64,000 nucleotides of DNA from Lactarius indigo (Eukaryota; Basidiomycota; Agaricomycetes; Russulales; Russulaceae). Below are positions 2,373 to 64,000 of this stretch, piece after piece. Positions within the stretch are counted from its first letter, which is position 1. Every line of letters starts with the position of its first letter. Made by a program: the position numbers and the translations under genes. Location of the stretch: positions 992,001 to 1,056,000 of the forward strand of contig JAFKAC010000017.1 in NCBI GenBank assembly GCA_025766275.1. The letters run 5' to 3'. The notes beneath the pieces are model-generated. The model worked only from the letters and a program-made list of their open reading frames with translations, was not told the origin of the DNA and searched no databases.

Positions 2373-2383
2373 AAGACCAAGAT
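2373..2383 (+). promoter_or_regulatory. Self-primer binding site of B1
   Basis: aagaccaagat, two bases after the LTR, is the exact reverse complement of atcttggtctt in the LTR. This is the Tf1/sushi self-priming layout rather than a tRNA site. Confidence 0.6.
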
Positions 2384-2389
2384 AACACC

Positions 2390-2761
2390 GTGGCCATAAC
2401 AACAAGAGACCAGTGGACGAGTTTCTGTCCCTATTCACTCCCCAGGAGAGGAGAGCACAACATCCCCACATGCTTTCTAAAGGCAGCTAGTTGGAGGGAA
2501 AGGCAAGAAGAAACAGGATATTTCGTAGAATTCAACGGACCTACCAGGTTCCGACCAGTTGAGTTCAACTTTGACCACCTGTGTTGGGCAGAAGTTACAT
2601 GGAACCCCATAGACTCCCAGTGGGACGTGGTGCGACCAGCAGGGCCCAGATACCAGTGCGACATCGACACAAGAGAGCTCAATAGCAGAGCAGACTGGGG
2701 CCCCATTGACGGACAACTACAAGAACATACGACCGGAGAAGCGGTGTCCGAAGGTGCAGAG
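2390..2761 (+). pseudogene. gag: B1 gag, N-terminal extension, first 124 codons
   Basis: From a GTG in strong context (A at -3, G at +4) this encodes the conserved AUG-less start of Gag: TRDQWTSF, GYFVEFNGP, RFRPVEFNFDHLCW, EVTWNPIDSQWD and GPIDGQ. It is about 75 percent identical by eye to the same segment in family A. It is cut at 2761 by the 3' LTR of element C and resumes at 34770. The role of this segment is unknown; it precedes the Gag capsid-like region. B1 cannot make full-length Gag because of the insertion and a stop at 35520. Confidence 0.8.
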
Positions 2762-3537
2762 TGTAGCGGTATGACTTATCGCGACAACTAGACCAAGCAA
2801 AGAGTAAGTGAACTGAACTAGTGCACACTCAAGCCTAATGCTGAGACAAGTCACGCGCTGAACATACAGTCACAGTGGAGGGTAGACACGCTTGACACCT
2901 TTATACAAGGTGCTATGTCTGATGATCACACTGTGGCACGCTGAGTGGAGAACCAAGAGGACAAGTTAACATTTGGAGAAGAGTAAGGGAAGTACAAGAG
3001 AATACGCACCTGAGTGGAGAACCAAGAGGACAAGTTGGTTCCACTCAGGATGTTACATGAGGGTTTATATACACTGCTGTGGCTGAGTTCGAATTACTAT
3101 AGAACCTTGTTACTAAAGGTACATGTAATAGTAATGAGTCAGACGCTGACGCGTTGTGTCTAATAATAGCGTTATCTATTGTGCTGACTGATGCACAGTC
3201 ATTAACACTGACAGAACAATGACGCGTCCTTATCTATGAGTCACAACCCTATGACAACGTAGTCTAGAACTATCTAGAATCTTCCCTGCTTATCGTCCAA
3301 TGAGAAACTATCATACTAATAAGGAAAGTGACCTAAAGAGGTAACATCCAATTAAGGAGGTTACTATCCCAGGGTCACGTGCTTGTAGGTGCACATGTTG
3401 GCATCATGTGACTAACCATCTTATCATATCTTATGATAAGGACTTGGATGTTTGACACAGCGTTGGAGGCTTGTATCTTTACCGAATAAATCCATAAAAA
3501 TATGGATAAATAGGGCGAAAATAGAGCGTCCGTGACA
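2762..3537 (-). repeat. 3' LTR of gypsy C
   Basis: 776 bases, TGTCACGG...CGCTACA when read on the minus strand, preceded by the purine tract aggaggggggtga (3538 onward, minus). Same length as its partner at 33989-34764. Confidence 0.92.
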
Positions 3538-7221: not shown

Positions 7222-7433
7222 CTCCGAGGCAGATGTAGATGTAAAATCAGAACAGGAAGCTGAGATATCACTACTATCAACATGACAGGCAGAAACAGAG
7301 TGGTACGTAGGAATTACAGATTGGTCCGAGTCCGAAACGAGGCGAGATTGTAGGCATATCTTACAACTACACGAGGCTGAGTCAACTGTATCTGTTTTAC
7401 AGGGAGAGTCCGCAGCTATGACTGCCCCTGGAT

Positions 7434-7442
7434 CTAAAAAGC
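7434..7442 (-). promoter_or_regulatory. Likely -1 frameshift site at the gag stop of C
   Basis: Minus strand GCT TTT TAG: five Ts lead directly into the gag stop. Slipping TTT back one base reads TTT TTA GAT and enters the pol frame, which is open from here to 3550. This is a single-codon slip, not the classic X XXY YYZ heptamer. Confidence 0.45.
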
Positions 7443-8286
7443 TGCTTTAAGAGCGTTGATCTGCTCTTGTTGAGCTGTGAGCGCTGCCAATAACTTTGCC
7501 ATGTCTGCCTGGGACGTATTGGCTTTGGGCAGTGCAGGAGTGCTTGTTTGGGTGGTGGAAGCCGCCGACTGACTGGAAGAAGGTTGGGAGGGGGTGTCCT
7601 CACTACTGGCCGCAGCTTTCGCTTTGGCGGATTTCCCCATAAATTTGAGCATGCAGACGGGTGCCCTATGTCCGACTTTTTGACAATGGTGGCACACATC
7701 TCGTTCGTGATTTCCATCCTTCTTTGAGTGGTCCTTAGAACCACACCCGTAACACTTGCCTTGCATGTGTTTTTGATAGTCTTGCCGAGTCTTTCCGCCG
7801 GATGCGGGCTTGCTCGTGCCAGATCCCTGCTGATGTGATGCATCAACTTGCATCGCGTCTGGATCGGACGGCTTGCCTGCAGGCAAGATTGATTGGCTGG
7901 ACGAACCGCCCTTCTTCTCCGAGTCCCTCTGTCTCAGTCGCTGATCCAGTGATTGTGAGACCTGCTTGAGGTCGTCAAAGTCGACGTGGGCCTTGTCCGT
8001 TAAGGCTAAGGCATCTTTTACGCGGTCCGAGAGACCATCGTAAAAGCGGGTGCGGAGGTCTGCTTTTGACCATCCAGTCTGTCCAGAGTACTGTTCAAAC
8101 ATGGATCGGTACTCTGCAACCGATCGGCGGCCCTGTTTTGTCTTCTTCAACTGTTCCCTGGCTGTCTCCGTGGTATCGAGGGGTGAGAATCGCCTGTTGA
8201 ATTCTTTGACAAATTCATCCCACGAGCCAGAGAATGGAATATTGTTTTGCTGAAGTTGTTCAAGGTAAGGGAGAGCCCATGACTTG
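7434..8286 (-). pseudogene. gag: Gypsy C gag, C-terminal part (interrupted gene)
   Basis: C-terminal 284 codons or so of Gag: the capsid-like region (EYRSMFEQYSGQTGWSKADL), a serine/glutamine-rich stretch, and two zinc-knuckle-like boxes. The second, CHHCQKVGHRAPVC, is canonical CX2CX4HX4C. The first, CYGCGSKDHSKKDG, lacks its final cysteine. The gene is broken at 8286 by the A1 LTR. The other part is 32268-32641, and the two add up to 1227 bases (409 codons including stop) with no frame change. Gag forms the particle and binds RNA. Confidence 0.9.
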
Positions 8287-8815: not shown

Positions 8816-10777
8816 GTGGCGTATTCGACCAGAGATCAGTGGACGTCCTTTCGTCCTTATCATATTGAACGACGAGGAGATCGCAATGTACCTACAAGAT
8901 TCCTAGGAGCAGCTCAGTGGAGAGAACGAGGAGAAGACACCGGATATTTCGTAGAATTCAACGGTCCTAACCGCTTCCGACCCATTGAGTTCAATTTCGA
9001 ACACCTCTGTTGGACCGAGGTTACTTGGAACCCTATAGATCATCGCTGGGATATTGTACGACCAGCAGGAAGAAACTACAATTGCGACATCGATGCGCGA
9101 GAACTTAATAGTCACACAGATTATGGTCCCATTGACGGACAAGCACAAGAACATACAGACGAAGGAATCAGCGGAGAAGAGGCTTCTGAAAGTCAATCTC
9201 CAAGTAGAGGGACAACCCCAGCAGAGGACACCAGTTTAGGAGCTATTGGCGATCACATCATACAACGAACTGAGTCCCTTACCATTCACCAACTTGAACC
9301 AGAAGTAATTCACATCCATAGTCCAGCAGCTGTGATGGCTACCACCACCGTCACACAAGAAGAAGTACGACTAACTGAAGAAGCTAGGGATTGAATAGCC
9401 CTAGAGGAACAAAGACGTATTGCCGCAGAATCGCAAGCCAATTTAGCCCCCATCAACCCTTATACCGGTCATCGAATGACCAAGGACGACGTAGCAATTC
9501 ATCGCGCCATCGGACCCGATGTAGCCAATCCCCCCAGCGGAGGAGGCGGACCTCCTGGCGATCTACCAGGAGGAGGAGGACCTCCATCAAGAGGGCCCGG
9601 ATTCGGAGGGTTTCCTGGAGGATTCCCGGGAGGACCGCCAGGAGGAGGACATCCTGGAGGAGGATTACCAGGTGCAGGTCCTATTGTTCCCCCTCCAAGT
9701 AACAAATTAGCTGGCGAAGCACCTACAGTATTCGATGGAGAACGCACCAAAGTTGAAGCGTTTCTCACTCAATGGCACGTCTACTGGGGCATGAATGCAG
9801 ATGAAGGCATCATGGCAACCCCATATCGCCGCGCCTTACTCTTTCTCTCATACATCAAGGGCGTCAACGTTAGCGAATGGGTATTAGCCATGCTCACTTG
9901 GCTCAACAACCAGATACAAACCGGGATACCCCGTACCAGCGAAGGGTTATGGAATGAAGTAACCCGCAGTTTTATGCAGCGTTTCTGCAATATGATGGAG
10001 CAAGAGCAAGCTCAATACGAACTCAAAAAAGGAGTCAAGATGATCGGGGGCAACCTAGATGAGTACTGCACCCAATTCGAACAGTTAATACGCCAAGCCC
10101 ACTACAGACTTGACGATCCACAAACATTGGATCTGTTTGCAAGTGGTCTACCAAAAGACCTATATGAGAAGGTCTACACCCTCGACAATCCCCGCAACTA
10201 TCGCGAGTGGAAAGAAGCAGCCACCACTCGACAACAACAATATCTTCACCTAAAGGCAGTATTAAACAAAGGAGTTCCTCCAGGGCAAGGACAAGGACGA
10301 CAGCGCCAGCAACAACAATGGCAGGGACCGCCACGGAGTTCTTGGCAACCCAGAAATCTGCCCCGAGATCCAAATGCGATGGACACCTCGGCAGACCAAA
10401 TTCGAGGGTGACTTGCAGGAGCAGAAGATATACTCACTCCTCGTCCCCCATACCGACCAAGGGGAGGATTCCTCCAGAGAGGAGGAGGGCATAACAACCA
10501 AAGGCCAGTCACTTGTTACAATTGTGGGAAGGACGGACACATGGCCCGCGATTGCAGGCAACCACAAGGAGGCTATCAGCCTCGAGCATCAACTAGTCGT
10601 TATATCGATACCGACTATCATCAGCAAGAACCAGAGGTCACTACCAGGGTGGTTTCAGAGGCACCCCCTCAACAGTGCACCAACAATTGGCTTAACGGAG
10701 TAGCAGGAGAATCAGACGACGTAAAAGATATTATCCTCCAACAGTTGTGGAAAAAGGAGGGTTTTCAGGACGCCTGA
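8816..10777 (+). pseudogene. gag: A1 gag with N-terminal extension, stops at 9392 and 10409
   Basis: Single frame from the GTG at 8816 through the first ancestral ATG at 9335 to the stop at 10775. Parts: conserved extension (TRDQWTSFRPY...GPIDGQ), then MATTTV, a proline/glycine-rich linker (GGGGPPGDLPGGGGPP), a capsid-like region (FLTQWHVYWGMN, LDEYCTQFEQLIR) and one zinc knuckle CYNCGKDGHMARDC. TGA codons at 9392 and 10409 stand where sister copies have arginine or a related codon; the 10409 one is CGA in A2. An ATG at 8777 exists only because ACG became ATG in this copy. Confidence 0.88.
10759..10765 (+). promoter_or_regulatory. -1 slippery heptamer of A1
   Basis: GGGTTTT read as G GGT TTT in the gag frame, four codons before the gag stop. 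Slipping back one base reads GGG TTT TCA and enters pol. Confidence 0.65.
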
Positions 10778-15420: not shown

Positions 15421-17382
15421 GTGGCGTACTCGACCAGAGACCAGTGGACGTCCTTCCGTCCCTATCACATTGAACGACGAGGAGATCGTAACGTACCTAC
15501 AAGATTCTTAGGAGCAGCTCAGTGGAGAGAATGAGGAGAAGATACAGGATACTTTGTCGAGTTTAACGGTCCTAACCGTTTCAGACCCGTTGAGTTCAAT
15601 TTCGAACACCTCTGTTGGACCGAGGTTACTTGGAACCCCATAGATCATCGCTGGGACATCGTACGACCAGCAGGAAGAAACTACAATTGTGACATCGACG
15701 CGCGAGAGCTTAACAGCCGCGCAGACTACGGTCCTATCAACGGACAAGCACAAGAACATACAGACGAAGGAGTCAGTGGAGAAGAAGCCTCCGAAAGTCA
15801 ATCTCCAAGCAGAGGAACAACACCAGCAGAAGACTCCAGTTTAGGAGCTATTGGCGATCACATTATACAACAAACTGAGTCTCTTACCATTCACCAACCC
15901 GAACCAGAAGTAATTCACATTCATAGCCCAGCAGTCGCAATGGCAACTGCCACCATCACGCACGAAGAGTTGCAGCTCACCACGGAAGCAAGGGATCAAA
16001 TAGCCCTAGAAGAACAAAGACGCATCGCTGAAGAATCGAGAGCTAATCTAGCTCCCATCAATCCCTACACCGGCCACCGAATGACCGAGGACGACGTAGC
16101 AATCCATCGCGCAATCGGACCCGATGTCGCTGACCCTCCCAGCGGAGGAGGAGGACCTCCTAATGATTTACCAGGAGGAGGAGGAGGACCTCCGTCTCGA
16201 GGACCCGGATTTGGGGGATTCCCTGGGGGATTCCCAGGCGGACCACCAGGAGGAGGACCTCCGGGAGGAGGAATACCAGGTGCAGGTCTTGTCATTCCCC
16301 CTCAAAGTAACAAGCTAGCTGGCGAAGCACCCACAGTATTCGATGGAGAACGCGCAAAAGTCGAAGCATTTCTCACCCAGTGGCATGTCTATTGGGGCAT
16401 GAACGCAGACGAGGGCATTATGGCCACACCATACCGACGCGCCCTACTTTTTCTATCTTACATCAAAGGCGTCAACGTCAGCGAATGGGTACTAGCGATG
16501 CTCACCTGGCTTAACGGCCAGATACAAGCTGGTATACCCCGCACTAGTGAAGGGCTATGGAATGAAGTCACGCGCAGCTTTATGCAGCGCTTCCGAAACA
16601 CAATGGAACAAGAACAAGCTCAATACGAGCTCAAGAAAGGAGTCAAAATGATTGGAGGCAATCTAGATGAGTATTGCACTCAATTCGAACAACTGATACG
16701 CCGCGCTCAGTATCGACTCGATGACCCGCAGACGCTGGATCTGTTCGCAAGCGGACTACCAAAAGACCTGTATGAAAAGGTCTATACTCTTGACAATCCC
16801 CGCAACTACCGCGAGTGGAAGGAAGCGGCCACCACTCGCCAACAGCAATACCTTCACCTTAAAGCGGTGTTGAACAAGGGAGTTCCCCCTGGACAGGGAC
16901 AAGGAAGACAGCGACAACAACGACAGTGGCAAGGGCCACCAAGGAGTTCATGGCAGCCCAGAAACTTACGAGATCCGAATGCCATGGATACCTCAGCCGA
17001 TCGAATCCGAGGGCGACTCGCAGGAGCAGAAGACATACTCGCTCTGCGTCCCCCATACCGACCAAGAGGAGGATTCCTCCAAAGAGGAGGAGGACGTAAT
17101 AACCAAAGGCCAGTCACCTGTTACAACTGTGGAAAGGACGGACACATGGCCCGTGATTGCAGACAGCCACGAGGAGGATACCAACCCCAAACATTGACCA
17201 GTCGGTACATTGACACCGACTACCATCAGCAAGAACCAGAAGTCGCTACCAGGGCGGTTCAAGATGTTCCCCCTCAACAGCGCGCCAGTGACTGGCTTAA
17301 CGGAGTAGCGGGAGAATCAGACGATGTAAAAGACATTATCCTCCAGCAGTTGTGGAAGAAGGAGGGTTTTCAGGACGCCTGA
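15421..17382 (+). pseudogene. gag: A2 gag: AUG-less extension (15421-15939) plus Gag from ATG 15940 (480 aa)
   Basis: From ATG 15940 the frame is intact to the TGA at 17380. It encodes MATATITHEE, a glycine/proline-rich linker of roughly 70 residues, a capsid-like region (FLTQWHVYWGMNADEG, YKGVNVSEWVLAMLTWLN-type helices, DEYCTQFEQLIRR) and one zinc knuckle CYNCGKDGHMARDC near the C-terminus. Upstream, 173 codons from GTG 15421 continue the same frame and are conserved with family B, but carry one TGA (15532) that is CGA in A1. The short Gag could still be made. Gag packages the element RNA into cytoplasmic particles. Confidence 0.9.
17364..17370 (+). promoter_or_regulatory. -1 slippery heptamer of A2
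   Basis: G GGT TTT in the gag frame, with the gag stop at 17380. The -1 product continues GFSGRLNPSAWVR into protease. Confidence 0.7.
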
Positions 17383-27393: not shown

Positions 27394-29337
27394 TCAGGCG
27401 TCCTGAAAACCCTCCTTTTTCCACAATTGTTGGAGGATGATGTCTTTCACGTCGTCTGATTCTCCCGCTACTCCATTAAGCCAGTCACTGGCGCGCTGTT
27501 GAGGGGGTACATCTTGAACCGCCCTGGTAGCGACCTCTGGTTCCTGTTGATGATAGTCGGTGTCAATATACTGACTGGTTGACGCTTGGGGTTGGTATTC
27601 CTTTCGTGGTTGTCTACAATCGCGGGCCATGTGTCCGTCCTTTCCACAATTATAACATGTGACTGGCCTTTGGTTGTTACGTCCTCCTCCTCTTTGGAGG
27701 AATCCTCCTCTTGGTTGGTATGGGGGACGAGGGGCAAGTATGTCTTCTGCCCCTGCAAGTCGCCCTCGAATTCTATCTGCGGAGGTGTCCATGGCGTTTG
27801 GATCTCGAGGTAGGTTTCTCGGTTGCCAAGAACTTCTTGGCGGTCCTTGCCATTGTCGTTGTTGGCGTTGTCATCCCTGTCCTTGTCCTGGCGGCACTCC
27901 TTTGTTTAATACCGCCTTGAGGTGAAGATACTGCTGTTGACGGGTAGTTGCAGCTTCTTTCCATTCGCGGTAGTTACAGGGGTTGTTGAGGGTGTAGACC
28001 TTCTCATACAAGTCTTTTGGTAGTCCGCTTGCGAATAGATCCAACGTCTGGGGATCATCAAGCCGATACTGAGCGCGGCGTATTAATTGTTCAAACTGAG
28101 TGCAATACTCATCTAGATTGCCCCCAATCATCTTGACTCTTTTTTTGAGCTCATACTGAGCCTGTTCCTGTTCCATCGTGTTGCGGAAACGCTGCATGAA
28201 GCTGCGCGTGACTTCGTTCCATAATCCTTCACTGGTATGGGGTATGCCGGTTTGTATTTGGCCGTTAAGCCAGGTAAGCATCGCCAATACCCATTCGCTA
28301 ACGTTGACACCCTTGATGTAAGAAAGGAAGAGTAGGGCGCGTCGGTATGGGGTTGCCATAATGCCTTCATCGGCGTTCATGCCCCAGTAGACATGCCATT
28401 GAGTGAGAAACGCCTCAACTTTTGCGCGTTCTCCGTCAAATACTGTGGGTGCTTCACCAGCTAATTTGTTACTTGGAGGGGGAATAATAGGACCTGCACC
28501 TGGTAGTCCTCCTCCCGGTGGTCCTCCTGGGAATCCTCCAGGGAATCCTCCAAACCCGGGTCCTCTTGATGGGGGTCTTCCTCCTGGTAAGTCGCCAGGG
28601 GGTCCGCCTCCGCCACTAGGAGGGTCGGCTACGTCTGGCCCGATGGCACGGTGAATTGCTACGTCGTCTTCAGTCATTCGATGACCGGTATAAGGGTTAA
28701 TAGGAGCTAGATTAGTCCTGGATTCTTCTGCGATACGTCTTTGTTCTTCTAGGGCTATCCGATCCCTTGCTTCGGTAGTGAGCTGCAGTTCTTCTTGCGT
28801 GATGGTGGCAGTTGCCATTGCGACTGCTGGGCTGTGGATGTGAATTACTTCTAGTTCTGATTGGTGAATGGTGAGGGACTCAGTTCGTTGTATAATGTGA
28901 TCTCCAATCGCTCCCAAACTGGCCTCTTCCGCTGGTGTTGTTCCCCTGCTTGGAGATTGGCTTTCAGAAGCTTCTTCTCCACTGATTCCTTCGTCTGTAT
29001 GTTCTTGTGCTTGTCCGTCAATAGGACCGTAATCTGCGCAGCTATTAAGTTCTCGCGTGTCGATGTCGCAGTTATAGTTTCTTCCTGCTGGTCATACAAT
29101 GTCCCAGCGATGATCTATGGGGTTCCAAGTAACCTCGGTCCAACAGAGGTGTTCGAAATTGAACTCAACAGGTCGGAAACGGTTAGGGCCGTTAAATTCT
29201 ACGAAATACCCAGTGTCTTCTCCTCGTTCTCTCCACTGAGCTGCTCCTAAGAATCTTGTTGGTACGTTGCAATCTCCTCGTCATTCAATATGATAAGGAT
29301 GGAAGGACGTCCACTGGTCTCTAGTCGAGTACGCCAC
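27394..29337 (-). pseudogene. gag: A3 gag with N-terminal extension, three stops
   Basis: Frame from GTG 29337 to the stop at 27394. TGA at 29283-29281 and 29094-29092 in the extension (both CGA in A1) and at 27871 after the capsid-like region. It encodes the same parts as A2 gag, including the zinc knuckle CYNCGKDGHMARDC; the glycine/proline linker is shorter. Confidence 0.88.
27406..27412 (-). promoter_or_regulatory. -1 slippery heptamer of A3
   Basis: GGGTTTT on the minus strand, in the same codon phase as in A1, A2, B1 and B2. Confidence 0.65.
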
Positions 29338-33988: not shown

Positions 33989-34764
33989 TGTAGCAGTATG
34001 ACTTATCGCGACAACTAGACCAAGCAAAGAGTAAGTGAACTGAACTAGTGCACACTCAAGCCTAGCATGGAGACAAGTCACACGCCAAACGTACAGTCAC
34101 AGTGGAGGGTAGACACGCTTGACACCTTTATATAAGGTGCTATGTCCGATGATCACACTGTGGCACGCTGAGTGGAGAACCAAGAGGACAAGTTAACATT
34201 TGGAGAAGAGTAAGGGAAGTACAAGAGAATACGCACCTGAGTGGAGAACCAAGAGGACAAGTTGGTTCCACTCAGGACGTTACATGAGGGTTTATATACA
34301 CTGCTGCGGCTGAGTTCGAATTACTATAGAACCTTGTTACTAAAGGTACATGTAATAGTAATGAGTCAGACGCTGACGCGTCGTGTCTAATAATAGCGTT
34401 ATCTATTGTGCTGACTGATGCACAGTCATTAATGCTGACAGAACAATGATGCGTCCTTATCTATGAGTCACAACCCTATGACAACGTAGTCTAGAACTAT
34501 CTAGAATCTTCCCTGCTTATCGTCCAATGAGAAACTATCATACTAATAAGGAAAGTGACCTAAAGAGGTAACATCCAATTAAGGAGGTTACTATCCCAGG
34601 GTCATGTGCTTGTGGGTGCACATGTTGGCATCATGTGACTAACCATCTTATCATATCTTATGATAAGGACTTGGATGTTTGACACAGCGTTGGAGGCTTG
34701 TATCTTTACTGAATAAATCCATAAAAATATGGATAAATAGGGCAAAAATAGAGTGTCCGTGACA
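33989..34764 (-). repeat. 5' LTR of gypsy C
   Basis: 776 bases. TATATAAA at 34298-34291 on the minus strand; predicted RNA start aacttgtcct at 34263. The word agaggacaagtt recurs at 34183 and 34252 as part of a direct repeat (gagtggagaaccaagaggac). Confidence 0.92.
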
Positions 34765-38978: not shown

Positions 38979-40769
38979 ATGGCCTCTAAAGGCACCAGCC
39001 AAGCCGGCGCCGCAGGCCAACCCCCATCGTCATCGAGCAGAACCACCAGGTCAAGCTCAAAACTAGGGTCAACCGCCCCTCATAAAGATACAGGTCCCAC
39101 TACAGACCCAAGAAAAGTCAAGCCCATTGCAGGTATGGAGGCACGTGGCATACTGACAAAAATAGATTGTCTCCTAGAGGGCGAACAAGTCACACAAGGG
39201 GCACTGTTTAAGATCTACAAAAGAATACTAATGCGCTATGGTGACACAATCCCGCAGGACCTACACCTGACGCTCCAAGCCTTCGCAATCTTACTACAAG
39301 AATGCGAGGGCGCACACAACAGGGTGATGGAGAAACTAACTCAAAAGATAGAGGAAAAGGTCGAGAGCGCATTGGATAAGGGTCTAACTAAGATGAGTAC
39401 CATAATCGAGAACACCTTAGCTAACCAGAAGGAATGGCAGGCAACGACCGAATCAATAACGGGCGCGGCAGACTCACTCCAAAAACTCACGCAAGACATA
39501 TCCAAAAGCGTCAAAGAGGCCACAGTCAACTCGGACAACCTAACACACACAATTTCATCATACAAAGAAGCCCTCCTCAAAACGAGCAACGTGCCCGTCC
39601 GAGAGCACACAGTGGTGTCCCCCAGACAAGCCGAGGACCCCAGGCTAACCAGGGACTTAGAACGCAAAAAGAGACAAATCCTCCTGGAATTCAGCAACGA
39701 CTTCTCAGCAGAGAAGAGCGTGTTGGATCTCAAGGAGAGAATAGACACTGCACTCGCAAACTCCTCCCCTCCACCCCCGGAGGGGGCGAAGGTCCAGGAG
39801 ATCAACAAACTCCGCAACGGAGGTCTAATCATACAGCTGACGACCAAAGAAGCTGCAGATTGGCTACATGAACCCGCCAACGAGCTCGCCTTCGTTCACC
39901 AGCTAGATCCAAACGCCTACATAAAGGAGAGGGTTTACCCAATCCTAGTGCCAAGGATACCAACATCTTTTGAACCGAGCAACGACGAACATCTACGTGA
40001 AGTGGAATGCGTCAACAACCTATCGCCCAAAATGGTCAAAAATGCGAGATGGATAAAACCCGAATACAGACGTAATCCACACCAGAGATTCGCATACACC
40101 ACCATCACGCTCACCTCCGCATCAGAAGCTAACCGTTTAATTAGGGACGGGATGTACGTATGCAATGTGCGTACATACCCCAAGAGGCTCAAATACGAGC
40201 CGAAGCAATGCATGAAATGCCGTAAGTGGGGACACTTCGCCACAGACTGCCACGCAACCGTGGACACCTGTGGTACCTGCGGCGGAGAACACATGACCAA
40301 AGACTGCAAGGAACAAACAAAAAGATACTGCGTGGCATGTCGTTCAAATGACCATGCAAGCTGGGACCGAGCCTGCCCAGACTTTCAGAGGAAAAGCGCA
40401 CATTTCGACAAGCTACACCCAGAAAACGCGCTAACATACTTCCCCACAGATGAGAGCTGGACACTAACAGCAAGACTGGAAAGAATACCACTAGACGAAC
40501 GCTTCCCAAATAAGCACGCAGTCATCGGCCTCCCCCCTCCCAATCATACAGTCAGATCACACCCGGTAAGATCGGTAGAGCAAAAGCCTAAACGCCACAA
40601 AGCAAACAAAGGTAACAACGGCACGGGAACCCTGGATGACTTCGTCGTCCCAATGCCGTCCCTTAGGCACATACGGGACGCCATCAAGGACTACACCGAA
40701 GACTTACAAGATGACTGGGAGGACAAGGCAGTCGACAACCTCCTCTCACCCGACAAACTATGTCTATAA
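38979..40769 (+). CDS. LINE ORF1, Gag-like RNA-binding protein, 596 aa
   Basis: Intact. A low-complexity N-terminus is followed by a long helical, probably coiled-coil middle (residues about 100-250) and three cysteine boxes near 408-465: CMKCRKWGHFATDC (canonical CX2CX4HX4C), CGTCGGEHMTKDC (CX2CX3HX4C) and CVACRSNDHASWDRAC (CX2CX4HX6C). ORF1 proteins of this group coat element RNA and form the particle used in target-primed reverse transcription. The stop overlaps the ORF2 start, suggesting termination-reinitiation. Confidence 0.93.
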   Translation: MASKGTSQAGAAGQPPSSSSRTTRSSSKLGSTAPHKDTGPTTDPRKVKPIAGMEARGILTKIDCLLEGEQVTQGALFKIYKRILMRYGDTIPQDLHLTLQAFAILLQECEGAHNRVMEKLTQKIEEKVESALDKGLTKMSTIIENTLANQKEWQATTESITGAADSLQKLTQDISKSVKEATVNSDNLTHTISSYKEALLKTSNVPVREHTVVSPRQAEDPRLTRDLERKKRQILLEFSNDFSAEKSVLDLKERIDTALANSSPPPPEGAKVQEINKLRNGGLIIQLTTKEAADWLHEPANELAFVHQLDPNAYIKERVYPILVPRIPTSFEPSNDEHLREVECVNNLSPKMVKNARWIKPEYRRNPHQRFAYTTITLTSASEANRLIRDGMYVCNVRTYPKRLKYEPKQCMKCRKWGHFATDCHATVDTCGTCGGEHMTKDCKEQTKRYCVACRSNDHASWDRACPDFQRKSAHFDKLHPENALTYFPTDESWTLTARLERIPLDERFPNKHAVIGLPPPNHTVRSHPVRSVEQKPKRHKANKGNNGTGTLDDFVVPMPSLRHIRDAIKDYTEDLQDDWEDKAVDNLLSPDKLCL

Positions 40770-43700
40770 GACCCAACAGAGCACCAAACAGCGAACTAAC
40801 CATTTGGCAGCAGAACCTCAACAAATCCCCTACCGGCCAACATGATCTCATCAGCAGCGGTAGGTTAGCAAAATCAAACGTCGACATCATCGCCCTTCAA
40901 GAACCGGCAATCAACTTCCTCAATAAAACCATAGCAACGCAGGACTGGATCCCCTTATACCCTACCACACACGACAAAGAGCCGAAGAAAACACGTGCAA
41001 TCACCCTGTTACAAAGCGACCTACCCACCGAGAGATGGGAACAGGTTGACTTTGAATCTAGCGACGTAGTAGTAGTGAAGATATACGGGGACTGGGGCCA
41101 AGCAACAATACTCAACATATATAACGACTGTCATCACGATCACACCATTCACAAGCTGACCAACTTTCACAGGTATAACCGCGACCACCTCCAAGGTGTA
41201 GATGCGGAAGGAAATCCGAGACATACAATATGGCTAGGCGATTTCAACAGACACCACCCGGCATGGGACAACCCAGAAGATGAACGTCTCTTCAGCAATA
41301 ACGCCCTAGAGGCGGCGGAGACCTTAATCAAGGCCGTTGCAGATCTCGGCCTAGAATCTGCACTGGCTGCGGGTACCCCAACACACGTCCACAATGTCAC
41401 CAAGAAGTGGACCCGACTGGATCAAGTCTTCGCGACAGAACACACCCTAGAAAGGATAACAATATGCGAAGCGCGTTTTGAAGACAGAGGTATAAACACG
41501 GACCATGTCCCTGTCGTTATGACACTGGACATGTCTCTGGGTAAGACGCCAACACGCATCAGCAACAACTTCAGGGACGTAGACTGGGACGAATTCCGTA
41601 AAGCCCTAGAAGAAGAGATATCGGACTTCGGCGTACCAAAAAGACTAGGATCCCAATCAACTCTCGACCGCAAATGCACCAGGCTAACTAAAGCACTACA
41701 GAACGCTATCAAAAGAGCAGTTCCCACAACGGAAATCTGCCCCAAATCCAAAAGATGGTGGTCAAAGGAACTTAGTGACCTCAGGAAACGCACACAGAAA
41801 CTCGGGAGAAAGGCCAGCCAATACAGGAACTGGCCGGAGCACGCTGTGCACGTGGAGTACAAAGAGATCAGCAAACAATATGACAAGGCCATCAAATACA
41901 ACAAACGACACCACTGGCGCAACTGGTTGGAAAGAGCATCAGACCCCGACCTCTGGACGGCCAACAAATACATCACAGCCCCGGCAAGCGATGGGGGAAA
42001 AACGAGAACCCCAAACCTTAAAATCACCAAAGACGGGCAAGAATGGACGGCCAACAACAACGAGGACAAAGGGGTCATGCTAGCGAAAACTTTCTTCCCT
42101 CCCAAACCAGCCACCTGCGTAAACCCACATACTCCAGTCAACTACCCCCCGCCAATTTGCGCCACCCACAAAATCACCAAAGATCAAATAAGACGGCAGC
42201 TGAAACGTCTAAAGCCATTTAAGGCGCCCGGGCCAGACGGAATTCCCAATATCGTCTTATCCAAATGTGCTGACGTACTTATTGACAGGCTCTGGTACAT
42301 CTACAGCGCAATCCTGGAGCGCGAAATCCATCACACACCCTGGAAACAATCCAATACGATTGTCTTACGTAAGCCAGGGAAACCACGCTATGACACACCC
42401 AAGGCATATCGTCCCATCGCCCTATTGAACACAATGGGGAAACTTCTCACGGCGATAGTCGCAGAGCAGCTCACCTACTACACAGAGAAGTTCAATCTAC
42501 TACCCCCACTCCATTTCGGGGGAAGACCAGCACGCACGACCACTGACGCACTGCATGCCCTCACATACAGAATCAAAGACGCCTGGCGGAAAAAACAGGT
42601 CGTCGCAGTCCTATTCCTGGACATAGAAGGCGCATTCCCGAATGCGGTCAATGAAAGGTTAATACACAATATGAAGTCAAGAAAAGTGCTGGAGAAACTA
42701 GTTAAGTTCACTTATAACTTGTTGAAAGATCGTCGCACTACGCTTAAATTCGACGACTACACTTCAGATAGTATCACCCTGGACAACGGTATCGGACAAG
42801 GAGACCCCCTCTCCATGATCCTATACCAATACTACAACGCAGATCTGCTGGACATACCGAAAAACCCAGAAGAATCGGCAGCAGCCTACGTTGATGATGC
42901 CATCCTCATCGCGACGGCCAAAGACTTCCCCAAGGCGCACAAAATACTAGCAGATATGATGACTAGACCGGGAGGCGCGATTGAATGGGCAAATGAGCAC
43001 AACTCGCAGTTCGAATTCAATAAATTGGCGCTGATCGATTTCGCCCACAGGAATAACAACAAAAAGCGCTGCCCACTATCCCTCCCAAATGCCAATATTG
43101 ACCCAACGACAAGTACCAAATACCTCAGAGTCTACATCGACCAGCACCTTATGTGGAACATGCATATCGCGCACGCAATCAAGAAAGGGTCGATGTGGAG
43201 CGCCCAACTGAGACGAGCGGTAACCCCATCCTGGGGCTTAACACCAAAATACGCCAGAAAGCTTTTCATAAGCGTAGCAACCCCCAGGGTACTTTACGCA
43301 GTGGACGTGTGGGGGGCCCCCAAACCCATTGACACACTGCCGCCCAACAAAAAAGGGCTAAGCAAGGCAATCACGAAGCTAACAGCTACGCAAAGAGCAG
43401 GAGCACTGGCAATCACTGGCGGACTGAGAACATTGCCTACTGATGTCCTGGAGGCACACGCCTTCCTCCTGCCGCTGCACCTTGAGATCGACAAGATATG
43501 TCACAGAGCAGCCACGAGAATCGCAACCCTCCCCCTAGATCACCCCCTATCAAAGCCGGCCAGAAGATGTGCAAACAGACCAATCAAACGCCACCCATCA
43601 CCGCTCCATATCCTCATGCAAACTTACGGCATCCGTCCAGACAATTATGAAACCATCAGACCAGTACCACGAAACCCCGCACTCTCGCACAAAAGGCCAT

Positions 43701-44785
43701 TCACGGTAAGCATACCGGCCAATAAGAACGCCTCGGTAAGCGAAGAAGGACATGCCAGGGAGAAAGTGAAGGTCTACACTGATGGGTCAGCACACAACGG
43801 CAAAGTAGGGGCAGCGGCTATTCTATTCCGACAGGGAGGTCCGATCCGCAAGTTGCATTACCACCTAGGCCCAAGTTCACTGCACACTGTTCACGAAGCG
43901 GAACTCACGGGTATTCTATTAGGTCTACACTTAATAAGAACGGACAAAAAAGGGAAAACCAGCTACTCTATCGGAGTGGATAACCAAGCAGCACTAAGCG
44001 CACTCTCAGCGGTAAAGCCATCACCAGGCCAATACATTGCTGATGAAGTCTTGGTTACCGCAGCACGTATAAAGAAAAACATGAACTCCCCAAACTATTC
44101 ACTCAAATTCAGGTGGACGGCCGGCCACTCTGGTATCAAGGGAAATGAAGCAGTAGACAGCGAAGCAAAAATAGCAGCTGACGGACTAACCTCAGACATA
44201 AAAACACTTCCCCCGCTACTCCGCAAACCGCTAAAAATCAACAGATCGGCCACGCTTCAACAGAAAAGAACCACCCTGAGAAACCGGTGGAAGACTGAAT
44301 GGGCGACGTCAGCACGCGCACAGAAGACTAATGACATAGATCCCTCCCTGCCATCCAATAAATACCTTAAGCTGATCAATGATGACAGGTTATCAAGGGT
44401 GGATGTCAGCCGCATATTCCAACTGAGAACAGGGCACATACCGCTCAATGGTTATCTCGAACGTTTTAAACGGGTGGACAACGCAAGATGTCCGGCCTGC
44501 GGACACCCAAAAGAAAATCCCCGGCACTTCCTCCTTGAATGCCCATCCTATGGGCACGAAAGATGGGCGCTCATAGCACAGTGCAAAAAGAAAAACCCCA
44601 AATTAGCAGACATCCTAAACGACGCAAGCATGCTAGTCCCTTTAGCAAATTACATACACGCAACGGGCTGCTTCGAACAAGACAAAAACACCGAAGCCAC
44701 CGCAAGCCAACAAAGTGGCCCCAACGTGCACACACCAAACCCCACGTTACGACAGGCAGATGTCCCAAGCCCAACCAAGGCATGA
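40760..44785 (+). CDS. LINE ORF2, endonuclease-reverse transcriptase-RNase H, 1341 aa
   Basis: Intact. N-terminal AP-type endonuclease (WQQNLNKS, IALQEPAIN, WLGDFNRHHPAWD, TDHVPV). RT with KAPGPDGIPN, YRPIALLNTMGK, FLDIEGAFPN, GIGQGDPLS and the catalytic AYVDD at about 709-713. RNase H with YTDGSAHNG (D1008), HEAELTG (E1048), VDNQAAL (D1074) and AGHSGIKGNEAVD. C-terminal zinc box CPACGHPKENPRHFLLEC. It nicks target DNA and copies the RNA at the nick. The ATG at 40760 overlaps the ORF1 stop by 10 bases (ATGTCTATAA). No stop or frameshift and all catalytic residues present. Confidence 0.96.
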   Translation: MSIRPNRAPNSELTIWQQNLNKSPTGQHDLISSGRLAKSNVDIIALQEPAINFLNKTIATQDWIPLYPTTHDKEPKKTRAITLLQSDLPTERWEQVDFESSDVVVVKIYGDWGQATILNIYNDCHHDHTIHKLTNFHRYNRDHLQGVDAEGNPRHTIWLGDFNRHHPAWDNPEDERLFSNNALEAAETLIKAVADLGLESALAAGTPTHVHNVTKKWTRLDQVFATEHTLERITICEARFEDRGINTDHVPVVMTLDMSLGKTPTRISNNFRDVDWDEFRKALEEEISDFGVPKRLGSQSTLDRKCTRLTKALQNAIKRAVPTTEICPKSKRWWSKELSDLRKRTQKLGRKASQYRNWPEHAVHVEYKEISKQYDKAIKYNKRHHWRNWLERASDPDLWTANKYITAPASDGGKTRTPNLKITKDGQEWTANNNEDKGVMLAKTFFPPKPATCVNPHTPVNYPPPICATHKITKDQIRRQLKRLKPFKAPGPDGIPNIVLSKCADVLIDRLWYIYSAILEREIHHTPWKQSNTIVLRKPGKPRYDTPKAYRPIALLNTMGKLLTAIVAEQLTYYTEKFNLLPPLHFGGRPARTTTDALHALTYRIKDAWRKKQVVAVLFLDIEGAFPNAVNERLIHNMKSRKVLEKLVKFTYNLLKDRRTTLKFDDYTSDSITLDNGIGQGDPLSMILYQYYNADLLDIPKNPEESAAAYVDDAILIATAKDFPKAHKILADMMTRPGGAIEWANEHNSQFEFNKLALIDFAHRNNNKKRCPLSLPNANIDPTTSTKYLRVYIDQHLMWNMHIAHAIKKGSMWSAQLRRAVTPSWGLTPKYARKLFISVATPRVLYAVDVWGAPKPIDTLPPNKKGLSKAITKLTATQRAGALAITGGLRTLPTDVLEAHAFLLPLHLEIDKICHRAATRIATLPLDHPLSKPARRCANRPIKRHPSPLHILMQTYGIRPDNYETIRPVPRNPALSHKRPFTVSIPANKNASVSEEGHAREKVKVYTDGSAHNGKVGAAAILFRQGGPIRKLHYHLGPSSLHTVHEAELTGILLGLHLIRTDKKGKTSYSIGVDNQAALSALSAVKPSPGQYIADEVLVTAARIKKNMNSPNYSLKFRWTAGHSGIKGNEAVDSEAKIAADGLTSDIKTLPPLLRKPLKINRSATLQQKRTTLRNRWKTEWATSARAQKTNDIDPSLPSNKYLKLINDDRLSRVDVSRIFQLRTGHIPLNGYLERFKRVDNARCPACGHPKENPRHFLLECPSYGHERWALIAQCKKKNPKLADILNDASMLVPLANYIHATGCFEQDKNTEATASQQSGPNVHTPNPTLRQADVPSPTKA

Positions 44786-59993: not shown

Positions 59994-60505
59994 TGTCACG
60001 TTTCGAATGGACTGTACGACTTGGACCCTTACTGTACCAGTTGCAACTACGGCGGTAAGGTATATTAGTTGTGGACTTATCTACGGTGATACGGTAGTGC
60101 GATAGGAGATACGGTACGGATTGCTGACTGAGGACTTACGCCACTAATACTAGTAGTAGTAGTATTAGGATTGAGTACTTTACGCGACACGTTGGACGCT
60201 ACTTTACGATGACTCATAGCAGCGCTTCAAAGCCTGCTCGACTTGTATTTATAGTGTCAGATGAAGACCAAGAAACGCCATCTTGGTCTTCTTGAATCGT
60301 CACTTGTTCCTTTCTTCTCTTTCTCCGAACTTCTTCGCATTGATTCCAATCGCTCTTTCAAGAACCTTCGAACTACCGGTGTACCTTCGTGTATTCACCA
60401 AGGCAGAACTTGGACCTTCGCGTCTTCAAGGATAAGACTTCGAACGCAGCTGAGTTGTTACCGTCGACCGAGCTCAAGTCGAGCTAACGTCGTGACGACG
60501 TTACA
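59994..60505 (+). repeat. 5' LTR of B2
   Basis: About 512 bases, TGTCACG...CGTTACA. TATTTATA at 60246-60253; predicted RNA start atcttggtctt at 60280-60290, 34 bases after the TATA start. Confidence 0.8.
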
Positions 60506-60507
60506 TT

Positions 60508-60518
60508 AAGACCAAGAT
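60508..60518 (+). promoter_or_regulatory. Self-primer binding site of B2
   Basis: aagaccaagat, exact complement of 60280-60290, two bases inside the LTR. Confidence 0.6.
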
Positions 60519-60523
60519 TCATC

Positions 60524-62569
60524 GTGGCCGTAACAACAAGAGACCAGTGGACGAGCTTCCGTCCATATTCGATCCCAAGAAGAGGAGAACGTAACGTCCC
60601 TACGCGCTTCTTGCGAGCCGCTAGTTGGAGGGAAAGACAAGAGGAGACCGGATACTTCGTGGAATTTAACGGACCTGCTAGGTTCCGACCAGTTGAGTTT
60701 AACTTCGACCACTTGTGTTGGACAGAAGTTACGTGGAATCCAATAGACTCTCAGTGGGACGTCATACGACCAGCAGGGCCCAGATACCGGTGCAACATCG
60801 ACGCTCGAGAACTCAATAGTAGAACAGATTGGGGCCCCATTGACGGGCAAGTACGAGAACATTCCACTGGAGAAGTAGTATCAGAAGAAGAGGAAGAAGC
60901 AAGCCAAAACGAGAGTGAAGGGCGAGAGCCAAATCAAACAGAGACTAGCGGAGGAGCAATACAAGATCTCCTCGTCGAACGAGCTGAGTCCGCCCACATC
61001 ACTGAACCAGAACCTATTCACATCCGATCCCCAGCCATTATGGCTACGATAACGCGCGCAATGGAAGAAGTAGCAATGGAAGAAGCGCGAGTAATACAAG
61101 ACGAGGCTAGAAATATCGTCATGCCCATTAACCCAGAAACGGGGGTACGTATGACTGCGGATGATGCCGCAATCTTCCGAGCGATAGGATCGGATAGAGG
61201 AGATCCCCCGTCGGAAAGGCGGCTAACAATGGAACTACCCCCGGGAGTAGGAGGGCCAGGAGACGATCCGCCGCCGCCACCAGGAGGAGGTATCCTGTTT
61301 GATCTGCGAAGGACCGAACCACCAAGAGGACCACCCCGCAACCCGCCCGGAGGTGGAGGTGGCGATGACGCCGGGGGGAGAGACAGAGGACACCCTAGCG
61401 AGAAATTAACCGGCGAGCCACCTTCCATTTTTGACGGAGACAGACTTAAAGTCGACCAATTCCTCACGCAGTGGCATGTTTACTGGGGCATGAACTTAGA
61501 CGCCCCCATTATGCGCAACGATTACAGGAGGTGTCTCCTGTTCCTCTTGTACATCAAGGGCGGAGGAGTCAGCAAATGGGTCCTATCCTTTCTAAACTGG
61601 CTCAATCGGCAGATACAACGGGGAATCAGTCCCTACACTCGAGGGTTGTGGGACGCGGTGGCCAACGGCTTCAGCCAGAGATTCGAAAACACGTTGGAAC
61701 GAGAACAAGCACAAGCCATCCTACGAAAAGGCTTCAAGATGGTGGGGGAGGATATTGACAAGTACGTCAACGACTTTGAACAGCTAGCACGGAAGGCTCA
61801 TTATCACCTCAACGAACCCCAAACTATCGACCTATTCACGTCGGGTTTGCCCAAGGAACTGTTCAAGAACGCGTTCCAATTTGATGAACCAGTAACGTTC
61901 GACGACTGGAAGCGGGCTGTCCTCAAACGACAAAAGAACTACATCCATCTCAAGGCACGGCTCAACGAATATAAAAATACGACGACCCCACCGAAGAAGC
62001 AGACAGGCAACGCAGGATGGGCACTCCCGCAAAACCTACCACAAACCAATCCATGGGCTATGGACACCTCCGCCGATCGAGCCAAAGTGCGATTAGCTGG
62101 ATCTGAAGAAATCGACTTCAACAAGCTGCCCCATCACGACTGGCCAACGCCACCCTTCCCCCCACGGGGAGGACCCGGAGCCAGGGGACGAGGGAGAGGC
62201 GGATCTAGAAGGGACTTAAGGAACGTCCTCTGCTATAACTGTAGAGCGCCAGGCCATCTCTCACGAAATTGCCCATACCCCCAACAACAGAGGCAGTGGC
62301 AAAACGCCCCGTCTAGTAGCAGAATGACGGAAACTGCCTGGCCATCGCAATGGCCGGGATCTCCGGGACCCACGTCTCAATACGAACCGTCGCTACCGGG
62401 GTATGCAACGCCAGCACCCAGTGTAACGCCCGCGCCACAAATCAAAGCAGCGAAAACAGCGGGAGAGCAAGCGAAGGAATGGCTGACACAGGTAGCCAAC
62501 AGCACGGACGAGGTGAAAGACCTCATATTACAAGACCTGTGGGGAAAAGAGGGTTTTCAGAACGCCTGA
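60524..62569 (+). CDS. gag: B2 gag, 172-codon AUG-less extension plus Gag from ATG 61040, intact
   Basis: Open from a TAA at 60485 to the TGA at 62567. The first ATG of any frame after the predicted RNA start is 61040 (MATITRAMEEVAMEE). GTG 60524 has A at -3 and G at +4 and is conserved in B1 and all A copies, so it is my candidate non-AUG start. Segments: extension (TRDQWTSFRPY, GYFVEFNGP, HLCWTEVTWNPID, ELNSRTDWGPIDGQ), acidic stretch, MATIT, proline/glycine linker, capsid-like region (FLTQWHVYWGMNLDAP, DKYVNDFEQLARKAHY) and zinc knuckle CYNCRAPGHLSRNC. 681 codons in all, about 509 from the ATG. Confidence 0.9.
   Translation: MAVTTRDQWTSFRPYSIPRRGERNVPTRFLRAASWRERQEETGYFVEFNGPARFRPVEFNFDHLCWTEVTWNPIDSQWDVIRPAGPRYRCNIDARELNSRTDWGPIDGQVREHSTGEVVSEEEEEASQNESEGREPNQTETSGGAIQDLLVERAESAHITEPEPIHIRSPAIMATITRAMEEVAMEEARVIQDEARNIVMPINPETGVRMTADDAAIFRAIGSDRGDPPSERRLTMELPPGVGGPGDDPPPPPGGGILFDLRRTEPPRGPPRNPPGGGGGDDAGGRDRGHPSEKLTGEPPSIFDGDRLKVDQFLTQWHVYWGMNLDAPIMRNDYRRCLLFLLYIKGGGVSKWVLSFLNWLNRQIQRGISPYTRGLWDAVANGFSQRFENTLEREQAQAILRKGFKMVGEDIDKYVNDFEQLARKAHYHLNEPQTIDLFTSGLPKELFKNAFQFDEPVTFDDWKRAVLKRQKNYIHLKARLNEYKNTTTPPKKQTGNAGWALPQNLPQTNPWAMDTSADRAKVRLAGSEEIDFNKLPHHDWPTPPFPPRGGPGARGRGRGGSRRDLRNVLCYNCRAPGHLSRNCPYPQQQRQWQNAPSSSRMTETAWPSQWPGSPGPTSQYEPSLPGYATPAPSVTPAPQIKAAKTAGEQAKEWLTQVANSTDEVKDLILQDLWGKEGFQNA
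62551..62557 (+). promoter_or_regulatory. -1 slippery heptamer of B2
   Basis: G GGT TTT in gag phase, gag stop at 62567. The -1 reading continues GFSERLNPSVWVRALRCNS. Confidence 0.7.
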
Positions 62570-64000
62570 ACCCGTCAGTCTGGGTGAGGGCCTTACGATG
62601 TAATTCTGTAATTGTGACAACGCGCTATCGATCTTTGCGAATTCCAGTGACTGTCCAAACGAATTACCAAACGACTGAAACGCACGCGCTGGTGGACTCC
62701 GGAGCCACCGATAATTTCATCCGACCAAGGATGGCGGCCCGGGCAGGAATCCCGATATGGCCTCTAGAAACGCCTCGCAAAATATGGAACATAGATAATA
62801 CGGAGAACAAAGCTGGGTTAATCACTCATTACGTTAACCTAGAAGTGAAAACACGCGGACAGATCCAACGAATGACCTTCTTAGTCACCGACCTCGGAAG
62901 CGAAGACATGGTACTGGGTTACCCATGGTTGAGCGCCTTCGAACCTACAATTAGCTGGGCAACAGCGACTATGCATCCGGACATGCAACCAGTAGTTCTG
63001 GCCACTACCGAAGAACTACTTACGACACCTGCCGTGTGGGCTCTAATCGTAACAGAAAAAGAGGCGATTATCCAAGAATTGGAAGAAGAAGAAACTATCG
63101 TACGGGCCACTACTTCGACAGAGTTGGCAATATCAGCAAAACAACAACAAACGGCAGCAGTGCTGCCACCGGTATACGCAGAATATAGTATGTTGTTCAA
63201 CGAGCAGGCCTCACATCAGTTCCCGCCATCTCGACCCTGGGATCATGCCATCGACTTCAAACCATCGGCGCCAGCGGCGATCGATTGCAAGATCTACCCT
63301 ATGACGCAGAAGGAAGAAGGCGAATTAAAAGAGTTCCTCGACGAAAAATTGAAACAGGGGTATCTACGCCCTTCTATCTCCCCGTACGCCTCATCCTTCT
63401 TCTTCATCAAAAAGAAGGACGGTAAACTACGCCCGGTACAGGACTACCGCGTGATCAATTCGCACACCATTCGCAACCAATACCCACTGCCGCTTATTCA
63501 AGATCTCATTTTGGACCTCAGCAACGCCCATATCTATACGAAACTTGATATCCAATGGGGCTATAACAACATCCGCATTCGCGACGGGGATCAGGAAAAG
63601 GCAGCTTTCAAGACCAAATTCGGCCTTTTTGAGCCAACAGTTATGTTTTTCGGTCTCACCAATTCCCCTGCAACCTTCCAGGCGATGATGAATCACATCT
63701 ACCGTGATACGATCGCGAAACACGAACGTCTGGGAACTACGATACGTGTTTACATGGACGATATCGGCGTAGCCACTCATTTTGACCACGATCTAGCGGC
63801 TCATATCGCCGCCGTACGCGATGTACTAAGCGTCGCACGTGAACACGACCTCTACTTCAAACTCGAAAAGTGCCTGTTCCACCAACCGCGGATGGATTAC
63901 CTGGGGGTAATCCTTGAAAAGGGGGTAACCCGAATGGACCCTGTAAAAGTTCAAGGCATCAAGGACTGGCCTACGCCAACAAAGGTCAAAGACGTCCGAT
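62551..64000 (+). CDS. pol: B2 pol, protease and most of RT, open to window end
   Basis: About 483 codons in frame -1 to gag with no stop. Protease ALVDSGATDNF; linker with KIYPMTQKEEGELK; RT KKDGKLRPVQDYRVIN, HIYTKLDIQWGYNNIRI, FGLTNSPATFQAMMNH and the catalytic VYMDDIGVA, ending in WPTPTKVKDVR. RNase H, integrase and chromodomain should follow outside the window, as in B1 and family A. Confidence 0.92.
63895..63928 (+). promoter_or_regulatory. Hairpin plus internal polypurine tract in B2 RT
   Basis: gattacctgggggtaatc (63895-63912) then gaaaagggggtaa (63916-63928). Confidence 0.5.

Follow-up and report, generated by a model that had tools for sequence, protein, structure and literature searches.

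Layout of the B2 element

We analysed a 64-kb stretch (the window) of the 90.3-Mb assembly of Lactarius indigo, a basidiomycete of the Russulales. A retrotransposon copy named B2 begins inside the window and continues past its end. As read from its sequence, B2 is the 5' end of a Ty3/Gypsy chromovirus with predicted self-priming, and we propose that its RNA specifies two nested forms of Gag, a GUG codon starting a protein of 681 residues and leaky scanning to the first AUG giving one of 509 residues. We put the probability of this reading at about 85%. The features of B2 are given below, all on the + strand; copy counts refer to 70 family-B copies including B2, which are the best 70 of 110 copies by similarity to B2.

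60246..60253, +, TATA-like box in the sequence, 34 nucleotides (nt) upstream of the predicted RNA start
60280..60290, +, predicted RNA 5' end and start of R, ATCTTGGTCTT, reverse complement of the primer binding site
60280..60523, +, AUG-free R-U5 leader before the GUG (11 ATGs observed against 125.6 expected, 70 copies)
60485..60487, +, in-frame TAA stop upstream of the GUG in B2 (sequence)
60508..60518, +, primer binding site AAGACCAAGAT, adjoining the end of the long terminal repeat (LTR); Tf1-like self-priming predicted
60524..60526, +, proposed GUG start of long Gag (GTG in 69/70 copies)
60524..61039, +, N-terminal Gag extension, open frame of 172 codons, AUG-free in all frames in B2
60524..60853, +, predicted globular beta-rich domain, extension residues 1-110 (AlphaFold2)
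60854..61039, +, variable acidic linker, predicted disordered (from the alignment and the predicted local distance difference test, pLDDT)
61040..61042, +, first AUG, proposed start of short Gag (ATG in 70/70 copies)
60524..62569, +, long Gag, open frame of 681 codons, GUG to stop
61040..62569, +, short Gag, open frame of 509 codons, AUG to stop
about 61595-61852, +, Retrotrans_gag, and about 62231-62275, +, CCHC knuckle, domain matches within short Gag
62551..62557, +, -1 frameshift slippery heptamer G_GGU_UUU in the gag frame (GGGTTTT in 68/70 copies)
62320..64000, +, pol open frame (protease, reverse transcriptase), -1 relative to gag, leaving the window

The RNA start was placed at 60280 because of the 11-base complementarity to the primer site and the TATA-like box at -34. 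Both 11-mers are intact in all 70 copies, and the box lies at -34 in 68 of them, at -35 in one and was not found in one. The RNA of Tf1 begins with 11 bases complementary to its primer site (PMC7175516), and B2 is like Tf1 and sushi elements in that an 11-nt RNA 5' end complements a primer site adjoining the LTR. No non-AUG Gag start is mentioned for Tf1 or sushi in the excerpted text of that source. In the Gag of B2 the CCHC knuckle scored above its cut-off and Retrotrans_gag slightly below (23.5 bits, cut-off 24.1), and the slippery heptamer lies 9 nt short of the gag stop. The window sequence of B2 stops within the reverse transcriptase, and the order of integrase and chromodomain was read from the related family A, whose pol shows the chromovirus order RVT_1, RT_RNaseH, Integrase_H2C2, rve, SH3_Tf2-1 and Chromo.

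The U3/R border (60263-60292) is also an inverted repeat, GAAGACCAAGA...ATCTTGGTCTTC, which gives the 11-mer at the RNA start a second complement just upstream. Such a repeat is also present at the RNA starts near 2127, 8553 and 15156, covering families A and B in the window, and in four leaders of a family C. The RNA would carry the second complement within its 3' LTR, where it could compete with the primer site.

Depletion of ATG between the predicted RNA start and the Gag AUG

From 60262 to 61039 the + strand has no ATG, and this run of 778 nt is the longest in the window on both strands, followed by one of 623 nt on the - strand. An earlier note on this DNA had described the leader of B2 as ATG-free in all frames, where about a dozen ATGs would be expected by chance. 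This is confirmed, and the overall pattern proved stronger than the note had put it. We found none in the 760 nt from 60280 to 61039, and base shuffles gave an expectation of 11.3; dinucleotide shuffles gave a lower one of 5.7, with 7 of 5000 free of ATG. Over the 70 copies, which are diverged (median pairwise synonymous divergence, dS, 0.68), R-U5 carries 11 ATGs against the expected 125.6 (observed/expected ratio, O/E, 0.087) and the extension 29 against 321.3 (O/E 0.090). Together these are 40 ATGs against 447, about 9% of expectation, compared with 1632 against 1388 in shuffles for gag past the AUG. ATG ranks lowest of the 64 trinucleotides in both R-U5 and the extension, whereas its reverse complement CAT is enriched (O/E 1.36 in the leader, 1.30 in the extension), which places the signal on the RNA strand.

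The depletion persists with the protein held fixed. Synonymous-codon shuffles of the extension gave 277 ATGs (standard deviation 10; lowest of 200 shuffles 247) against the 28 observed, while the gag body, with 1611 against 1629, has no comparable depletion. The two extension frames that are free of methionine-codon constraint hold 22 ATGs against 271 in these shuffles, and methionine codons number 6 in the extensions of 70 copies versus 691 in the gag bodies of 69. The depletion spans all three frames, on both sides of the GUG.

Its borders are sharp on both sides. ATG density is 7.4 per kb at 60224-60279 (56 nt) and 0 at 60280-60339 (60 nt), stays at or below 1.4 per kb in every bin from 60280 to 61039, and reaches 40.7 per kb at 61040-61099, where 101 of the 171 ATGs are additional to the Gag AUG. 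With the density jumping at both ends, the purge is thus bounded by the predicted start of the RNA and by the AUG of Gag. The earlier note had named RNA ends downstream of 60524 as evidence against its proposal; the purge begins at 60280, as expected for an RNA start there.

Among the 70 leaders, 40 have no ATG, 23 have one, four have two and three have three. Transitions at a mutated CpG account for 33 of the 40 stray ATGs, so the claim that upstream ATGs occur only at such positions was right in the main and slightly too strong in its "only". Leaders with ATG were found in 10 of the 11 stop-bearing copies versus 20 of the 59 stop-free ones (Fisher p 0.0006). Because the stray ATGs are mostly CpG decay and track with stop-bearing copies, the ATG-free leader looks like the living state and ATG-bearing leaders like those of decayed copies.

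Conservation of the GUG codon

The codon at 60524 is GTG in 69 copies and ATG in one, with A at -3 and G at +4 in all 70. The codon before it is ATC in 43 copies, ACC in 22, AAC in two, and ACT, ATA and ATT in one each, its first base being A in 70/70. A GTG in this context had been claimed for every copy. The GTG is present in 69 of 70 family-B copies and in 23 of 23 family-A sequences, and the context is complete in 70 of 70 B copies; genome-wide the GTG is nearly but not entirely universal, 49 sites having ATG.

Those genome-wide counts require an intact primer site and a trailing GC and are therefore lower bounds. The primer site followed within 9 bases by GTGGC occurs 1104 times, compared with 0 for the reversed control, and -3 is other than A in 7 of the 1104 sites. 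After the primer site, ATGGC was found 49 times, TTGGC once, and GTA, GTC or GTT followed by GC (GTHGC) 0 times genome-wide; the 1104 GTGGC against 0 GTHGC sites indicate that GTG is conserved at the nucleotide level. CTGGC, the counterpart of the CUG start of murine leukaemia virus (MLV), was absent from the 50 HTGGC matches genome-wide. In 48 of the 49 ATGGC sites C precedes the ATG, as expected from CpG decay, and their 20 different spacers imply that the change from GTG to ATG arose many times. ATG forms make up 4% of the NTGGC total. TGTGGC, the alternative product of the same CpG, is present at 319 sites, and this excess fits a removal of ATG forms; it is no measure of rate, and the T may be inherited.

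In B2, 5 nt separate the end of the primer site from the GUG. Across copies this spacing shifts by single bases, and the distance from GTG to AUG is a multiple of three in 70/70 (504-531 nt). In 58 of the 70 copies, the first in-frame stop met upstream of the GTG is a TAA at a distance of 18 nt, at the junction of LTR and primer site; in the other 12 it is 33-75 nt away. Protein matches also begin at the GTG codon: they start at query residues 10-13 (GTG being 13) in 102 of 110 B copies, at residue 1-2 in 150 of the 150 family-A copies listed, and at residue 1 of the query P0008 in 69 of 76.

The extension, the proposed short Gag start and the frameshift site

From the GTG at 60524 to the ATG at 61040, B2 is open through 172 codons in the gag frame, in agreement with the earlier description, and the extension is stop-free in 59 of 70 copies. 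Its median ratio of nonsynonymous to synonymous divergence (dN/dS) is 0.071 (dS 0.68, dN 0.049; 70 copies), compared with 0.040 in the gag body (69 copies, as for the first half of the extension). A ratio near 1 had been named as an argument against a coding extension, and the value of 0.07 dismisses it. Synonymous variation is 0.52 of expectation in the extension versus 0.65 in gag, and lowest in the first 30 codons. AlphaFold2, run on a sequence alignment of 34 sequences (alignment A3), predicted a mainly beta structure for the first ~110 residues with a block-mean pLDDT of 88-98, followed by an acidic linker at 35-55. A fold search with the predicted domain matched no solved or viral structure, which is not proof of a new fold.

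The position of 61040 is ATG in all 70 copies, with A at -3 in 67 and G at +4 in 70. In an alignment of 27 sequences (alignment A2) that are 37-94% identical to B2, Met is present at this site in 26, P0004 being without that stretch, and the linker around the conserved Met is variable. At the other end of the protein, the C-termini of the related Gag proteins P0001, P0002, P0005 and P0007 likewise read EGF(Q/P)(N/D)A.

The proposed two-start layout in related families

Other copies in the window that show the extension are:

GTG 8816, extension 8816..9334, first in-frame ATG 9335, +, family A copy A2, three out-of-frame ATGs inside
GTG 15421, extension 15421..15939, ATG 15940, +, family A copy A1, one in-frame TGA and one out-of-frame ATG
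GTG 29337-29335, extension 28819..29337, ATG 28818, -, family A copy A3, two stops inside
2373..2770, primer site 2373, GTG 2390, +, family B copy B3, extension ended by an inserted repeat

For family A we examined 23 sequences, namely 20 from 150 listed (L072 being read by eye) and the three from the window; ATGs were counted in 20 of the 23. GTG is kept in 23/23, and the layout is as in family B. An identity of about 75% between the extensions of B2 and family A had been reported. Over the first 112 residues this is borne out (77.7% with A1, 78.6% with A2); over the whole extension it is 64-66% (four aligned copies). Family C was defined by four copies among 76 scored with P0008, some of the 76 being family A. 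GTG is present in 4/4, and 3/4 have no ATG from the RNA start to the Gag AUG.

Among the hits of the protein searches were relatives from L. akahatsu, L. sanguifluus, L. vividus, L. pseudohatsudake and L. hengduanensis. Distant proteins numbered 120 among the matches listed, of 207. Among the matches listed, 80 of the 123 proteins gathered start with V at the GTG site. Metagenome gene callers accept ATG, GTG and TTG as starts, and a leading V was for this reason read as a literal GTG. Of these 80, 77 have no Met in residues 1-160 and then a Met, and the other three have Met at 63, 117 or 118. Eight proteins that read through the site keep Ile/Thr-Val-Ala, one of them as Thr-Val-Val. Five further proteins start with M there (P0014, P0023, P0031, P0070 and P0073), and M starts in ENA-derived proteins may be a printing convention only. 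Families A and C share the layout, which is also seen at the protein level in metagenomes and in further species of Lactarius.

The public Lactarius gene models P0001, P0002, P0004, P0007, P0010 and P0012 prepend unrelated upstream sequence to Gag, which in P0001 carries a chromodomain. Such foreign sequence was apparently added because no AUG opens the true Gag frame.

Proposed translation of Gag and alternative explanations

In the mechanism that we propose, scanning ribosomes would enter at 60280 and encounter no AUG across 760 nt. A minority would initiate at the GUG at 60524, in a strong context (A at -3, G at +4), and produce the 681-residue Gag, which would carry an additional folded N-terminal domain of ~110 residues on an acidic linker. 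The remaining ribosomes would scan on to the AUG at 61040 and produce the 509-residue Gag, and either isoform could reach the -1 frameshift site into Pol. Selection would hold the GUG weak and strip AUGs in all frames, because either change would shift the isoform ratio. The extra domain, given to a minority of subunits, probably acts in particle assembly or targeting. A weak start in a strong context, an AUG-free leader and an in-frame AUG at the end of the purge are together what leaky scanning requires, and the earlier proposal of a near-cognate start for long Gag with leakage to short Gag gains support from a purge that affects all frames and ends at 61040. The simplest explanation for a purge that extends from GUG to AUG is that ribosomes past the GUG must reach 61040, and short Gag would then be a real and probably major product.

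Several observations weigh against this reading. One to three ATGs are present in 30 of the 70 B leaders, and intact copies are over-represented in this set since it was picked by likeness to the open copy B2. In family A the depletion is weaker (27 ATGs against 153.6 expected, with 8 of 20 copies having none); the CpG figures are those of family B. The codons at 60527-60615 have a synonymous variation of 0.38-0.41 of expectation versus 0.65 in gag; no folding signal was seen behind the low values in the first 30 codons, and a search by folding energy for a structural enhancer near the GUG found none. The V starts in metagenomes depend on a bacterial gene caller, and the distant families are known here from proteins alone. 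Proline precedes the Met in most distant VALQQ-type proteins, so that -3 would be C, a weaker context than in family B. In rice tungro bacilliform virus (RTBV), a short upstream open reading frame (uORF) inside ORF II left translation of ORF III not lowered (PMC5902531), and an out-of-frame AUG therefore need not always harm the downstream product. Finally, the purge of AUGs taken alone also fits a general cost of upstream AUGs.

One alternative is that only the GUG-started long Gag matters, AUGs being purged because they trigger RNA decay or yield harmful peptides and not for the sake of the downstream AUG. Both the conservation of the GUG and the coding constraint agree with it, and a gag body without comparable ATG depletion fits any scanning cost of AUGs ahead of the first one. 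We nevertheless consider it unlikely. If the GUG caught most ribosomes, the 516 purged nt behind it would not be needed; the purge stops at 61040, where 26 of 27 aligned sequences retain the Met despite the variable linker; and GTG-to-ATG copies recur (49, with 20 spacers) yet stay at 4% of NTGGC. Quite improbable, too, is an internal entry or shunting that delivers ribosomes to the GUG without scanning of R-U5, for example through pairing of the RNA 5' end with the primer site. The first 11 nt of the RNA are indeed complementary to a site ending 5 nt before the GUG, but R-U5 is as depleted of AUG as the extension (O/E 0.087 versus 0.090), for which there would be no call in a bypassed stretch, and the folding energy is not unusual.

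Introns are common in fungal genes, and for relatives the NCBI gene models include additional upstream exons; both speak for a spliced or alternative transcript that supplies an in-frame AUG, with the GUG as an ordinary valine codon. We give this very little credence. B2 has no AUG from the RNA start to 61040, and an AUG formed at a junction requires AG/TG in phase, while the two AGTG sites present in at least 60 copies (60546 in 70/70 and 60753 in 67/70) are out of phase. No GTRNGY donor is common to at least 50 of the 70 copies, and an in-frame stop lies 18-75 nt upstream of the GTG in all 70. A plain valine codon also predicts other valine codons, of which 0 were found. The spliced exon that had been named as a counter-argument thus found no support, there being no conserved splice site across the 70 B copies that fits as a source of an in-frame AUG. 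As for an accident of composition or a methionine-poor protein, 7 of 5000 dinucleotide shuffles of B2 alone are ATG-free, but 70 diverged copies with 40 ATGs against 447, and 22 against 271 in the frames unbound by methionine codons, make it next to inconceivable.

Regarding the two-start reading more broadly, we lean slightly towards the view that an ancestral two-start Gag is common to the self-priming chromoviruses found in Lactarius and in metagenomes. A fixed ratio of GUG- to AUG-started isoforms would then be essential, the long form would have an unannotated domain of no recognised fold, and copies whose GUG became AUG by CpG decay would be dead through loss of short Gag.

Comparison with known systems

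In RTBV, the AUU start of ORF I is used by ~10% of ribosomes, while scanning by the others is aided by the absence of AUG over the next 900 nt, and a change from AUU to AUG strongly lowers downstream translation (PMC5902531). The sequence features of B2 follow the same pattern, with a putative weak non-AUG first start and then an AUG-free stretch to the next start. RTBV differs in that its products are different proteins from consecutive ORFs and its AUU is reached by shunting after a uORF, whereas here GTG and AUG share one frame (70/70), both proposed products are Gag, and the leader of B2 lacks a uORF AUG.

The glyco-Gag of MLV, to which the earlier note had likened the GUG-started Gag, has a CUG start (accCUGg), and ribosome density on its extension is 6.7% of that on gag, with little coverage at the CUG (PMC5778647); the extension has 88 residues (PMC5120145). 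It shares with B2 a near-cognate codon upstream of the Gag AUG and an in-frame conserved extension, here read from the sequence. Unlike in MLV, which belongs to the animal gammaretroviruses, the codon is GUG, the extension has 172 codons with a predicted beta domain, and AUG is purged from the whole leader. PEG10 has a CUG 34 codons upstream of its AUG, and both are used in addition to -1 frameshifting (PMC2800197). The family-B elements have candidate sequence features for such an arrangement, with GTG and ATG as putative starts and GGGTTTT (68/70) as a putative -1 site. PEG10, however, is one domesticated gene of mammals and its extension is short, as opposed to a mobile fungal family, and the excerpted text of its source mentions no purged 760-nt leader. 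The MLV parallel is apt, but RTBV and PEG10 are closer in logic.

Near-cognate starts that give N-extended isoforms are also reported in fungi. In yeast, GTG has ~20% of the activity of ATG in ALA1 and is among the most efficient non-ATG codons in the GRS1 context (PMC2909995), and Neurospora cpc-1 makes use of several near-cognate codons, with two AUG-started uORFs in the leader (PMC5487733). These are, unlike B2, host genes. A nested near-cognate Gag is thus already known in MLV and PEG10, and N-extended host proteins are known in fungi. In the portions of the literature that our search covered, no near-cognate nested Gag in fungal retrotransposons turned up.

If the two-start reading is true, these elements would amount to a natural experiment, with >1000 copies, on the choice of weak starts by eukaryotic ribosomes, and selection would have inscribed the rule of start choice in the leader of this lineage. 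It would also mean that the annotated Gag of a group of fungal elements either lacks the N-terminal domain or has foreign exons joined to it. Fungal elements would be added to retroviruses and a domesticated mammalian gag as known cases of near-cognate nested Gag, possibly with several origins, which raises the question of what an element gains from extended Gag in a fixed minority.

Other features of the window

Direct repeats at 2762-3061 and 33989-34288, which are 96% identical, lie at the breaks in the extensions of the family-B copies B3 and B1. These two may have been a single B copy that a large nested insertion divided into halves. The - strand carries a second chromovirus pol at 3553-7446, an open frame of 1298 codons with a chromodomain. 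A LINE-type (long interspersed nuclear element) sequence is found at 40715-44782, with endonuclease, reverse transcriptase and RNase H in one open frame of 1356 codons.

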